From positions 1 through 32,908 of the forward strand of contig CABMII010000096.1 in NCBI GenBank assembly GCA_902386255.1: a stretch of 32,908 bases of DNA, written 5' to 3'. This document shows positions 23,540 to 30,607 of the stretch, one piece after another. The stretch is from an uncultured archaeon (GTDB taxonomy: Archaea > Halobacteriota > Methanosarcinia > Methanosarcinales > Methanoperedenaceae). Both the position numbers and the translations under genes were made by a program. The stretch's first letter is position 1. Every line of letters begins with the position of its first letter. The notes under the pieces were generated by a model that worked only from the letters and a program-made list of their open reading frames with translations, did no database searches and was not told the origin of the DNA.

Positions 23540-23644
23540 ATGTCGTTCACAAAAAATATTTCACCTAAGAAGGAGACATCGGAGGGGAAATCCGCATGTC
23601 AGGCTGTCCGCTACGAACGGGCGGGCAGCCCAACAATTTTTTGA
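23540..23644 (+). CDS. Small ORF (34 aa) in the leader of the winged-helix gene
   Basis: The frame begins at the expected transcription start and encodes 34 residues (MSFTKNISPKKETSEGKSAC then QAVRYERAGSPTIF), ending 6 bases before the downstream ATG. A competing frame from ATG 23596 has a better ribosome binding site (GGAGGGG, 8 bases away), encodes MSGCPLRTGGQPNNF and overlaps the downstream gene start. Only one of them may be used, and I cannot decide. A leader peptide or an independent small protein are both possible. Confidence 0.35.
   Translation: MSFTKNISPKKETSEGKSACQAVRYERAGSPTIF
23602..23642 (+). terminator. G+C-rich hairpin followed by T-tract inside leader
   Basis: GGCTGTCCGC (23602-23611) pairs with GCGGGCAGCC (23621-23630) along ten positions with one G-U pair, enclosing a nine-base loop. 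Six bases later comes TTTTTT (23637-23642), just before the downstream ATG at 23651. It resembles an intrinsic terminator or attenuator, or a stem controlling translation. The spacer before the T-run is longer than usual. Confidence 0.4.
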
Positions 23645-23650
23645 GGCATT

Positions 23651-24178
23651 ATGAAAATACGGCTCGAAATCGAAGGAAAAAATGCAGGCAGCATAAATTA
23701 TAAAGGATCTGACTGCGCCGAACTTGCTGTAACTTATCTCAATTCAATCGAAGCCAATGAGGTGTTTATCCACCTGGAAAAAGATGACGGGACAAAAGCA
23801 AATGCACAGTTCGAAGGCGAATTCCTTGCCATGTCCGCCACTAAATTCATTATGACGGCTGCCAAAAGTAAAACCGATGTTCCGCAAGAAACATCCTTTT
23901 CAACCGGTCTCGATGAGTCCGAACCTCTTACTTTGAAAGAGCGTTTAGAGATGTTCCTGCGATTTGAATATCCCAGGATATGGTTCTCATCCCTCGATGT
24001 AAAGCGACAATACGAGAGCGTGTACGGGAAAATCAGCCTGAGCACCGTCTCAACGTACCTGGCAAGAATGTACAGGGATAATATACTCTTGCGGCGGGGC
24101 AACCGCAACCAGAGGGAGTATCGGTTTAAAGAGGAAACTGCACTTCTTTCGAATACGGAATATGTATTGGCAAAATAA
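23651..24178 (+). CDS. Winged-helix domain protein, unknown regulator
   Basis: This 175-residue protein has an N-terminal alpha/beta half (MKIRLEIEGKNAGSINYKGS, VFIHLEKDDGT). After a linker at about residues 72-90 comes a C-terminal winged helix at about 93-157 with LTLKERLEMFLRFEYPRIWF, DVKRQYESVYGKISLSTVST as the recognition region and LLRRGNRNQREYRF as the wing. I recognise no named family. A DNA-binding regulator is inferred. The unusual leader (small ORF plus hairpin) suggests its own expression is controlled. A GAGG element lies 4 bases before the ATG. Confidence 0.65.
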   Translation: MKIRLEIEGKNAGSINYKGSDCAELAVTYLNSIEANEVFIHLEKDDGTKANAQFEGEFLAMSATKFIMTAAKSKTDVPQETSFSTGLDESEPLTLKERLEMFLRFEYPRIWFSSLDVKRQYESVYGKISLSTVSTYLARMYRDNILLRRGNRNQREYRFKEETALLSNTEYVLAK

Positions 24179-24189
24179 AGTGAAAAAAC

Positions 24190-24480
24190 AGTGATGGGTT
24201 GATGAGCCGACCCTTCGAGACTAACTTTCAGGGCTTACAGCACCCTCGCAACACCAAATTACGCGTTGACTTCGCTGTAAATTGCGCTCCGTGCGCTTTC
24301 TATTAGCACCCCGGACACGGGAGAAATCCCAGTCAAACCACTTCCTTTTAGACCTTGAACGGTCACAGGGCATTCACGCCCGGGAAACTTGGAATTTACT
24401 ATATTCCAATATGGTCATTCTGCCGATTTCTTGCTAGCTCATCGTAGCGTGCACCTTATTACACACATTTGTAATAAGGT
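24190..24480. ncRNA. Candidate structured RNA or IS200/IS605-type relic
   Basis: This stretch has no convincing ORF, is more G+C rich than its surroundings and holds many hairpins. They include GGGT/ACCC (24196-24213), AGGG/CCCT (24230-24246), GCGC/GCGC with a five-base loop (24284-24296), CCCG-type stems around 24309-24330 including GGGA-GAAA-TCCC, GGGC/GCCC (24368-24381), TTGGAAT/ATTCCAA (24389-24409) and a perfect ten-base stem ACCTTATTAC/GTAATAAGGT (24453-24480). Hairpins at both ends and a structured interior recall a non-autonomous IS200/IS605 derivative or an orphan omega-RNA, but no TnpB codons are recognisable. A free-standing ncRNA is equally possible; the strand is undetermined. 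Confidence 0.35.
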
Positions 24481-24552
24481 AATTGATTATTTTGTTTTGT
24501 GAAGACTAATATTTTTCGCTAACAAAACAGGTAAAAAATATGGTCACACTAT

Positions 24553-28283: not shown

Positions 28284-28484
28284 CTATGACTCCTCCTCGA
28301 AAATAAAGACCTCCTCTATATTAGATTTTAAAACTTTAGCTATATCGTATGCAAGTTTTAATGAGGGGTTATATTTTCCTTTTTCCAAAAAAACAATGGT
28401 TTCTCTTCTTACACCTACCTTTTTAGCAAGCTCTTCCTGGGTTAAATCGTATCTTGCCCGCAGTTCTTTAATTCTCGTTCTCAT
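28284..28484 (-). CDS. XRE-family HTH regulator of the DUF2178 operon
   Basis: The 66-residue protein is essentially one Cro/CI-type helix-turn-helix: [20 protein letters not shown], then [20 protein letters not shown] and [16 protein letters not shown]. It starts within the stop of the fifth DUF2178 gene (TAATG) and is the last gene of the operon. Small XRE proteins next to DUF2178 membrane proteins are a recurring archaeal pairing. A DNA-binding role is firm for the family. That it represses its own operon through the repeat at 30624-30664 is my inference. Confidence 0.88.
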
Positions 28485-28882
28485 TAACCGGCCTTCTCAT
28501 ACCTGTAAAAGGACAGGAAGAATAATACAGAGGCGACTGCAAAAACCGGGCCCATCAATGCCGTGAATATTATTTCGTTTATCAGCCTTAGACCGAATAA
28601 TGCGAACAAAAGAGATATCGATAAGTAAAGGAATAAGAAACCCGCTCTTGATGCCCTGAGCAGGTTTAGCTCCGAACGCTCGTCGGTGGGAGCCTCTAAT
28701 TCCTCCCCTCTCTTCCACTTTCGGTAGCTATTAATCGAGATAAAAATCCCAAAAATTATGAAAAACCCGCTGAGCAGTTTGCCTAAAAGGTTCTCATAAT
28801 ACAATGAAAGCCAAAGCATACCCCCCAAGATAAAAAATATGCCTATAAACAAATTGCGATATAAAATGTCTTTGGTTTTCAT
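28484..28882 (-). CDS. DUF2178-like membrane protein, paralogue 5
   Basis: The 132-residue protein has four hydrophobic segments (about 9-28, 33-51, 76-97 and 104-125), with the loop motif PTDERS (D67-E68-R69) between segments two and three followed by a small-residue helix RASRAGFLF. The DER motif in this position is the hallmark of the DUF2178 group. Unlike its neighbours it lacks the terminal KKGD motif and ends RYEKAG. Function is unknown, perhaps a membrane sensor. Its ATG overlaps the stop of paralogue 4 by one base. Confidence 0.75.
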
Positions 28883-29316
28883 TACACGTCACCCTTTTTA
28901 TCAATATAAAGCCCAATAATTAACAACGAAAACGCGCCGGCAACCGAAATCACATAAACCGTGCTCGTATATTCCAGCCTTAAATTAAAGATGCTATTGG
29001 CCAGGCCGGAAACCATCAAGCATGCAATAAGCAGTAAAAATGCAACAAATCCGGCCTTCTCGCCGACCCACAAAGACCGTTCGTCAGCTATTGTTTTTCC
29101 TTCTGATTCTGCTTTAAACCTTTTGATATTCATATACGCGCTTATCAATAGAGTCAAGCCGAGGAGAAAGCTGCCAAGCGCACCTTTCTCGTAATACAAC
29201 CTCCCTTCATGAATGTTTTGAAGCATCACAAAAGAACCGAATAAGAGTAAAAATACGCTTAGCGTTATGGTAATCTTACTCATCAATAGCATTTTTTTAT
29301 TATTCTTATTATTCAT
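28882..29316 (-). CDS. DUF2178-like membrane protein, paralogue 4
   Basis: With 144 residues it has the common layout: a basic N-terminus, a pair of hydrophobic segments at about 14-33 and 46-63, the loop TIADERS (D78-E79-R80) followed by KAGFVAFLLL, two further segments, and the end YIDKKGDV. It overlaps the stop of paralogue 3 by four bases (ATGA), so translation is probably coupled. Function is unknown. Confidence 0.75.
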   Translation of the reverse strand: MNNKNNKKMLLMSKITITLSVFLLLFGSFVMLQNIHEGRLYYEKGALGSFLLGLTLLISAYMNIKRFKAESEGKTIADERSLWVGEKAGFVAFLLLIACLMVSGLANSIFNLRLEYTSTVYVISVAGAFSLLIIGLYIDKKGDV

Positions 29317-29726
29317 ATCATATCACCTTTTTTATTGCAGTACCACCTTAGCACAATGAAAATCCAGAGCCCGATAATCCAAATATCCTGAACACCTTCA
29401 GCTAATTCTCTTGAAGGAGTTAATATTGGGGATAACTTCAGCAATCTGAGAAGCGGGATTATTGCTGCAATCAGCAGCGTTGCAATAAACGCTGAATACC
29501 CGGCTTTATCGCGGATTCTCACGGACCTTTCATCTTCTATTAAATCTTCTTTAGATTTGGTTGCTGCAATAATACCGGCAGTTAATCCTATCATTCCACC
29601 CAAAAATAAAAGTAATCCGATAGCCCTAACAGGTTCAATAAACAAAAAAATAATTATTCCTGCCAGAATGGCGCCCAGGCTGATTCCAATAAATTTTATG
29701 ATATCCCTGTCTTTCCTGAATTTCAT
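29313..29726 (-). CDS. DUF2178-like membrane protein, paralogue 3
   Basis: A 137-residue member with hydrophobic segments at about 11-30, 36-56, 75-95 and 110-126. The inter-segment loop is DLIEDERS (D65-E66-R67) followed by VRIRDKAGYSAF, and the C-terminus is CNKKGDMI. Start and stop overlap those of its neighbours by one and four bases. Function is unknown. Sequence identity to the other four is low outside the DER and KKGD motifs, so the duplication is old or fast-evolving. Confidence 0.75.
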   Translation of the reverse strand: MKFRKDRDIIKFIGISLGAILAGIIIFLFIEPVRAIGLLLFLGGMIGLTAGIIAATKSKEDLIEDERSVRIRDKAGYSAFIATLLIAAIIPLLRLLKLSPILTPSRELAEGVQDIWIIGLWIFIVLRWYCNKKGDMI

Positions 29727-30148
29727 TACACGTCACCCTTTTTAACAAAATAGTAGACCAATATAGCCCACGAATATATTCCGATATGTGCGACAATTAT
29801 CGGCGTCCAGGGGGAATCCTTGATTGCCAGCAAGAAACTGTTTATCCCACCCAAAATGTATGCTCCACTCAATAGAATCAAACATCCCACAAGAATCAGA
29901 AATGCGTATAAGCTCGCTTTTTCGAGTGCTCTTTTGGTTCGTTCATCGCCCACAACTCCTGTTCTTGGCATTGACAAAAAAAGCCATGCAGTTATGATAC
30001 CATCCAACCAGAAAATAGTCTCGACAATTACGTTATCACCAAAAAATACCGGAGCTCCTCCTGAAATTTTTTGGATTATTGCAATTGCTATTGACACAAA
30101 CGTGAGAACGAGAACCAAATACCACCCTTTTCTGAGGAAGTTGTTCAT
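29726..30148 (-). CDS. DUF2178-like membrane protein, paralogue 2
   Basis: This 140-residue member has segments at about 8-26, 43-60, 80-102 and 115-134. The loop is GVVGDERTKRALEKASLYAF (D68-E69-R70), and the protein ends YYFVKKGDV. It starts after a 6-base gap from paralogue 1. Its upstream GGTGAT ribosome binding site lies inside a 22-base sequence duplicated within the end of paralogue 1. Function is unknown. Confidence 0.75.
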   Translation of the reverse strand: MNNFLRKGWYLVLVLTFVSIAIAIIQKISGGAPVFFGDNVIVETIFWLDGIITAWLFLSMPRTGVVGDERTKRALEKASLYAFLILVGCLILLSGAYILGGINSFLLAIKDSPWTPIIVAHIGIYSWAILVYYFVKKGDV

Positions 30149-30154
30149 TCGATA

Positions 30155-30607
30155 TCACCTTTTATTGCGAAGTAAGATGTCCTGTCCCAGTGTGGAAACC
30201 AATTGATTGGGGGATTCGACATCACCTTTTCTTGCAAAATAAACATAGAACACTATCATTGTTCCAATCATCACGAGAATTACAGTACTGAGCACCTTCT
30301 TTACGGTCATTTCAAGCGGACTGAAGTAATCTAAAAAACCTAAAACACCGACAAATGTGAGTGTTATAAACCATGAATATTTTACAGCAGCTGCACTTAT
30401 TTTTCGCGTTCTTTCATCAAATTCCGCTTGAACACCATATTTGCTATGTGAATAAATGCCAGTTATTGTGGTTGCTAAGCCAACTGACATAAGCACAGTT
30501 ATGATGATATCGGGCGGGTTCTTCCAAAATATTAAAAGAACAACTGCTACAAGCAATAGTATTGGCCCGAAAATCAATCGTTGTTTATTTACTTTTGTCA
30601 TTTCCAT
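30155..30607 (-). CDS. DUF2178-like membrane protein, paralogue 1, extended tail
   Basis: First gene of the operon, 150 residues, with segments at about 11-27, 34-52, 75-92 and 100-120. The loop is AEFDERTRKISAAAVKYSWF (D64-E65-R66). After the usual terminal YFARKGDV the frame continues for about 20 more residues (ESPNQLVSTLGQDILLRNKR), unlike the others. The cause is visible: a 22-base block at 30214-30235 recurs with two differences at 30147-30168, 67 bases away, so the tail is a duplication or insertion product. GAGGT eight bases upstream is the ribosome binding site. Confidence 0.75.
   Translation of the reverse strand: MEMTKVNKQRLIFGPILLLVAVVLLIFWKNPPDIIITVLMSVGLATTITGIYSHSKYGVQAEFDERTRKISAAAVKYSWFITLTFVGVLGFLDYFSPLEMTVKKVLSTVILVMIGTMIVFYVYFARKGDVESPNQLVSTLGQDILLRNKR

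Follow-up and report, generated by a model that had tools for sequence, protein, structure and literature searches.

Comparison among genomes shows the minus strand of a hairpin-rich segment from an uncultured Methanoperedenaceae archaeon to be a predicted gene in its own right, whose product, an RNA of about 290 nt, is not translated. The window, that is, the whole stretch of DNA analysed (32,908 nt), holds at positions 24193-24482 of its minus strand the core of the structured RNA taken for alignment, with the 5' end at the high coordinate. A preliminary description of the segment had offered three guesses, namely a non-autonomous IS200/IS605-like element, an orphan omega-RNA left after loss of tnpB, and a new archaeal non-coding RNA (ncRNA). 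The last proved to be the right one, on the grounds of homologues, covariation, a promoter of its own and the lack of any Rfam match. We file the RNA as a new family within the known kind of structured ncRNA genes of unknown function. As a whole, we think it likely that the segment is a stand-alone RNA gene with its own promoter, the product of which would act in trans as a ribonucleoprotein (RNP) scaffold or a riboregulator.

Sequence features and strand of the segment

Both stems that had been singled out at the outset were recovered, the perfect 10-bp stem (ACCTTATTAC/GTAATAAGGT; P1 in Table 1) and an inner 7-bp stem (TTGGAAT/ATTCCAA, 24389-24409). The segment had also been said to lack a usable reading frame, and indeed no ORF of at least 60 aa was found over 24190-24480, all six frames being interrupted. 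Its supposedly raised G+C content holds against the right flank and not, as a clear contrast, against the left one, because the value is 0.515 at 24200-24399, 0.325 in the right flank and about 0.455 in the gene on the left. The folding energy is -92 kcal/mol for the plus strand (shuffles, -70.1 ± 4.9; z = -4.47; 0/100) and -100.2 kcal/mol for the minus strand (shuffles, -82.9 ± 5.2; z = -3.35; 0/100). The preliminary description assigned no strand to the hairpins. We place the RNA on the minus strand because the RNAalifold consensus of 30 homologues favours it (-54.5 kcal/mol, versus -26.8 kcal/mol for the plus strand) and because the conserved promoter is situated upstream of the 5' end on that strand.

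Covariation and secondary structure

Thirty complete copies were aligned over the full length of the minus strand, and 92.8% of the 2188 cells of this alignment are paired. Changes on both sides were found in 44 of the 76 base pairs, versus 21.2 ± 2.6 in shuffled alignments (reached by 0 of 500); such shuffles are inflated by the kinship of the sequences, and a control that retains relatedness, in which the partners were slid by 1-3 columns, gave 10-18 doubly changed pairs. In a second family, f3, 33 of 70 pairs are doubly changed versus 18.6 ± 2.2 in shuffles, with the alignment fitted to f3's own structure; of the five measures there, one ('further pair types') fails to exceed the shuffles, its value being reached by 103 of 500. 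Covariation among homologues is present in both families; as is expected of a structured ncRNA gene, it goes beyond the shuffles in each of them and beyond the slid controls in the first.

The two families share one plan, which runs from 5' to 3' through P1, P2a (the loop of which pairs with the 3' end), P3 with the three-way junction P5/P5a/P5b, a variable P6, P7, P8 and a 3' tail (Table 1). P2a also occurs in changed yet paired forms (GCUU/GAGC, GUCA/UGGU). The pseudoknot between its loop and the tail is compensated across both families, as in GAUGAAC/GUUCAUC, GUGGGC/GCCCAC and AUGGGC/GCCCAU. The pairing counts took 43 of the 44 copies; one truncated f3 copy, which has no scorable left arm, was left out. 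Such an RNA would fold into a compact body, closed by the pairing of a 5' hairpin loop with the sequence at the 3' end.

Table 1. Features of the RNA gene and its surroundings (positions in the window)
Feature	Position	Strand	Basis or remark
C0, convergent gene, 175 aa, winged-helix-like by eye	23651..24178	+	No Pfam or NCBIfam family
U-run directly 3' of the RNA, probable terminator	24183..24188	-	Sequence; T-rich tract recurs after CAACCC in homologues
3' strand of the pseudoknot (GCUCAUC), close to the 3' terminus of the RNA	24201..24207	-	Complete pairing in 42/43 copies, taken as best match within the 45-base tail, which somewhat favours pairing
P8 hairpin (GCCC...GGGU)	24210..24234	-	Every cell paired, 1 pair doubly changed; longer in f3
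P7a/P7b hairpin	24235..24280	-	Both-side changes in 6/7 and 4/6 pairs
5' domain: P3 stem around P4 hairpin and P5/P5a/P5b three-way junction	24323..24430	-	Same fold in f3
P2a hairpin GCUA-cGAUGAGC-UAGC, loop is pseudoknot 5' partner	24433..24448	-	Stem paired in 42/43 copies
Pseudoknot 5' strand GAUGAGC	24437..24443	-	Covariation and per-copy pairing count
P1, 5' hairpin, 10-bp stem	24453..24480	-	9/10 pairs changed on both sides across homologues
BRE/TATA-like element, GAAAAATATTAGTC in the window, RAAAANTATTAAT in most relatives	24504..24517	-	Upstream-region alignment
Three TTAYC-like direct repeats, 12-bp period (GACC / TTACC / TTAGC)	24518..24545	-	Upstream alignment and pattern counts

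Distribution and inheritance

Among the outcomes that would count against its proposal, the preliminary description had named absent covariation among homologues and the lack of a second copy in any genome, and on both points the result was the opposite. By BLASTN, homologues with 70-97% identity are present in 28 of the 34 genomes of the window's own family (20 of the 21 good-quality ones), mostly in 1-2 copies, and covariance models extended the search to f3, which we infer to be another ANME-2 family. Model R1 matched 33 of the 185 genomes of the order, comprising 29 of the 34 own-family genomes, among which G008 carries merely a decayed copy, and four of the 17 f3 genomes (E 1e-9 to 1e-15). 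Model R2 was built from these four f3 genomes only, with no own-family sequence. It matched 13 of the 17 f3 genomes and, in the reverse direction, recovered the window copy (E 1.9e-7) and those of G011 (1.6e-9) and G031 (4.8e-9) at R1's coordinates; the E-values of both models are rough, as their calibration was short. One f3 locus also holds a CxxCH-rich cytochrome-like ORF.

Neither model matched in families f2 and f4. In f5, probably Methanosarcinaceae, R1 and R2 gave no confident match, and three weak R2 matches (G077, E 0.0128; G124, E 0.0139; G143, E 0.41) are not claimed. Plasmids, phages and viral contigs gave no match either, the viral contigs having been scanned with exact patterns only. 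A lone Verrucomicrobia contig matching a 20-base pattern received 8.5 bits from R1, and this match is therefore put down to chance or to too little sequence to judge.

In 26 genomes, the distances between the RNAs follow those between the proteins encoded by the adjacent gene C0 (Mantel r 0.69, reached in 0 of 2000 permutations). Comparison shows inheritance to be mostly vertical, at one fixed locus per family, in two archaeal families. Some lineages can do without the RNA, e.g. those of G001 and G003 (99% complete), from which it is absent and which both have C0 with a clean 3' flank; R1 found nothing over the C0 loci of G001, G003, G006, G015 and G033.

Promoter and 3' end

Upstream of nearly all copies in both families, three TTAYC repeats with a 12-bp period are directly followed by RAAAA and by a TATA-like TATTAAT or TATATT, at a distance of about 25 bases from P1. 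We take these flanking elements, as predicted from sequence, to be a BRE and a TATA box, and the U-run presumably to be a terminator. The TTAYC repeats are degenerate in the window genome and sharp in most relatives. A strict pattern (TTATC-N6-8-TTAYC-RAAAANTATTA) occurs at 14 sites in the 34 genomes versus none in the reversed control, and 11 of the 14 lie at the RNA. Strict patterns miss the window copy, the boxes of which are degenerate, and the strict three-repeat pattern has no site in the window genome. Since a looser pattern stays near the control rate, the RNA and a few ORFs aside, the strict counts alone were used as evidence. R1 found no RNA at nine further loci with the promoter pattern, and the four upstream regions compared by eye revealed no promoter in common with the RNase P or SRP genes. 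The RNA retains its own promoter at every location to which it has moved. In the proposed mechanism, the RNA would be transcribed from this conserved promoter, with the U-run at its end, and a transcription factor bound to the three TTAYC repeats, just upstream of the BRE/TATA element, may turn it on.

A small-protein family that shares the promoter repeats in some cases

The remaining three strict promoter sites precede an ORF of 63-71 aa (G007, G016, G029). Such ORFs form a family of 60-70-aa proteins, HTH-like by eye, which is present in 37 of the 185 genomes. It is conceivable, if rather unlikely, that the RNA belongs to a small regulon with these proteins and works jointly with them, for instance by acting as an RNA partner or as an antagonist. 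The 3:11 division of the strict sites between such ORFs and the RNA, with none in the reversed control, would fit a regulon, as would the occurrence of the protein family in 31 of the 34 own-family genomes and the position of a small ORF in G025, which follows the secondary RNA copy on the same strand after about 110 nt. However, the TTAYC repeats were found at only four of the 30 small-ORF loci examined (the small-ORF profile gave 33 matches, three of them by chance), the ORF has 1-11 copies per genome, several of them broken, and only four of the 17 f3 genomes have it. In addition, the cases of G004, G006 and G025 represent one insertion shared by descent. We regard the tie between the RNA and the small HTH-like proteins, suggested by a shared promoter in 3-4 cases, as a lead only.

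The small proteins tested against Pfam, PHROGs and NCBIfam gave no match above the cut-off. Members at L187, L189, L193, L052, L213 and L214 have the sequence MLETPEERVKLLKAGFTGKTIEKLYI.YNNFKI..., and a conserved leader motif, AAAAACGGGTT, often precedes the small-protein genes. Another hairpin leader (TTTTCAGCAGGGTGGTG...CACTGCCCTGC) recurs before the small ORF in L216, L223 and L228. Elsewhere in the window, at 28284-30607 on the minus strand, a gene for a 66-aa HTH regulator is accompanied by five tandem small membrane-protein-like ORFs, several of them with a 'DER' motif.

Neighbouring genes

The gene order that prevails in the first family is pelota, an S-layer-domain protein, two small ORFs (C6 next to the RNA), the RNA and C0, pelota being assigned by TIGR00111 and the S-layer domain by Pfam. 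All 13 f3 loci have trmI before the RNA and, where the contig is long enough, tmk or rfcL after it in convergent orientation; these three identities were read from translations. At 27 of the 39 loci C0 adjoins the RNA as a convergent neighbour, without being a defining part of the RNA gene. It does not depend on the RNA, since it occurs in 127 of the order's 185 genomes and most of these lack the RNA.

Its frequent position next to the RNA could also be explained, in the first family, by a role in cis, with the segment serving as a leader or riboswitch, as a terminator-type 3' structure or as antisense to the convergent C0 mRNA. The short distance between the C0 stop codon and the RNA in the window (about 15 bases or less) and the same-strand small ORF after the G025 secondary copy agree with such a role. 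Nevertheless, we consider it improbable: the f3 neighbours are trmI and tmk rather than C0, which is located elsewhere in these genomes; most C0 genes have no RNA beside them; and the promoter stays with the RNA wherever it has moved. Also, a conserved same-strand gene right downstream, as a riboswitch or mRNA leader would have, was not found, the following gene being convergent in both families. From the absence of a same-strand gene at a constant distance downstream, and from neighbours that are not the same in the two families, we infer action in trans, and a trans-acting regulatory or RNP RNA appears to be the most likely identity of the product.

A pairing between the RNA and the C0 leader that was seen by eye (GGAUUUCUCC with GGGGAAAUCC) is lost in relatives with a different leader, and this link was dropped for that reason. 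The leader, at 23572-23650 on the plus strand, is itself structured and is conserved in all 27 loci of the family. It consists of ACATCGGAGGGGAAATCCGGATGT, a variable hairpin and then CCTCC, which is able to pair with GGAGG. With a loose pattern, stem-loops containing GGAGGGG or CTGAGGGGAT(G/A)AATGG, single or double, were found before C0 in 18 of 19 loci of f3, f4 and f5. Rfam gave nothing for the leader up to E 5, and it is a candidate riboswitch-like or protein-bound leader across the order.

Moved copies and mobile elements

Moved or extra copies, set among ordinary genes, were found in G006, G009, G013, G017, G024, G025 and G008. On the RNA tree, three extra copies cluster with G018 and G014 and not with the main copies of their own genomes, a pattern that points to some transfer or to an ancient duplication. 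The secondary copies of G004, G006, G008 and G024 are decaying. Decayed, partly repeated copies with the promoter kept lie at L064:1015-1401 and L102:4718-4962, namely one in G024:C79 with tandem fragments and one in G008:C151 without the 3' half.

In favour of a remnant or non-autonomous form of an IS200/IS605-like element, or of an orphan omega-RNA of TnpB or IscB, one may cite the structured RNA with its length of about 300 nt and its lack of an ORF, the extra copies at new sites in G009, G013, G017, G024 and G025, and the secondary copies that form a partly separate clade. This origin is nonetheless very improbable. The window genome (2.6 Mb) has a single copy, its sole other match being the P1 palindrome against itself; the relatives mostly have 1-2 BLASTN matches and at most four, so that several near-identical copies per genome, as in non-autonomous IS200/IS605 elements, were not observed; and the locus is constant within each family. 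No transposase, TnpB or IscB was detected among the six window neighbours compared with Pfam or NCBIfam, or among ten proteins beside six of the moved copies (G006's left out) compared with Pfam and/or NCBIfam. The latter are a cytochrome, CysS, FttA, a methyltransferase, a ferredoxin, a short-chain dehydrogenase, UPF0014 and S-layer/BACON proteins, and one is without a match. The HEARO model (RF02033) gave no match over the window genome at E up to 10. Because of the empty HEARO search in the RNA's own genome and the absence of these proteins among the neighbours tested, both mobile-element proposals of the preliminary description fail, and the lack of plasmid, phage or viral-contig matches agrees with this.

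A retron-like RNA partner of a reverse transcriptase is equally remote: the resemblance is one of topology only, P2 closing the RNA and the conserved AGC after it being reminiscent of retron a1/a2 and the branching G, whereas the AGC is accounted for by the covarying P2a hairpin and the neighbour proteins tested included no reverse transcriptase.

Relation to known RNAs

The preliminary description proposed an Rfam covariance-model search, and in Rfam 15 (4227 families) neither the window copy nor any of the tested relatives matched a known family. For the window, with gathering cut-offs and at permissive E, nothing was found on the minus strand and only chance matches on the plus strand (IMES-4, E 0.097; Teg49, E 0.75). 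For f3 and relatives there was none, save one CRISPR-DR57 match (E 0.55) off the RNA. It had also been stated correctly that RNase P, SRP, 5S and tRNA do not fit, as neither ARAGORN nor Rfam gave a tRNA, tmRNA or rRNA match in the segment. The archaeal RNase P RNA and the SRP RNA resemble the new RNA in being about 300 nt long with mostly one gene per genome, but they have separate loci here, since the sole RF00373 match in the window genome is at G000:C132 and the sole RF01857 match at G000:C148.

OLE, GOLLD, ROOL and similar RNAs, which comparative genomics has brought to light, are large, independently encoded structured ncRNAs whose function is unknown. The present RNA is like them in its length of hundreds of bases, extensive covariation, absence of an ORF, apparent transcription unit of its own and narrow taxonomic spread, and unlike them in being archaeal, in having another fold and in lacking an Rfam match. 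With the HEARO or IscB omega-RNA it has in common the size class, the closing stem and a pseudoknot, and the short stretch CUGGGAUUUC is reminiscent of one IscB omega-RNA; in contrast, RF02033 is empty here, there is no adjacent IscB and inheritance is vertical. Methanosarcina sRNA154 is an archaeal trans-acting small RNA with a regulated promoter, from the same order. RNAs of this type were compared in sequence through Rfam only, and R1 and R2 have no confident match in f5. The open-access literature surveyed on Methanoperedens, archaeal and methanotroph ncRNAs gave no description of the RNA.

Biological significance

Not many structured RNA genes apart from the universal ones have been described in archaea, and here an RNA of about 290 nt with dozens of covarying pairs has been retained by the majority of genomes in two families. 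We tentatively suggest, as a possibility still somewhat doubtful, that it represents a new class of trans-acting RNA confined to ANME-2-type methane oxidisers and characterised by the loop-to-tail pseudoknot, with a dedicated TTAYC-reading factor that would also control the small HTH-like proteins, the whole being part of an RNP or regulon linked to the lifestyle of these archaea. The promoter motif may mark a regulon, and the RNA is a defined candidate regulator, open to experiment, in organisms that are important to methane turnover and for which no genetics is available.
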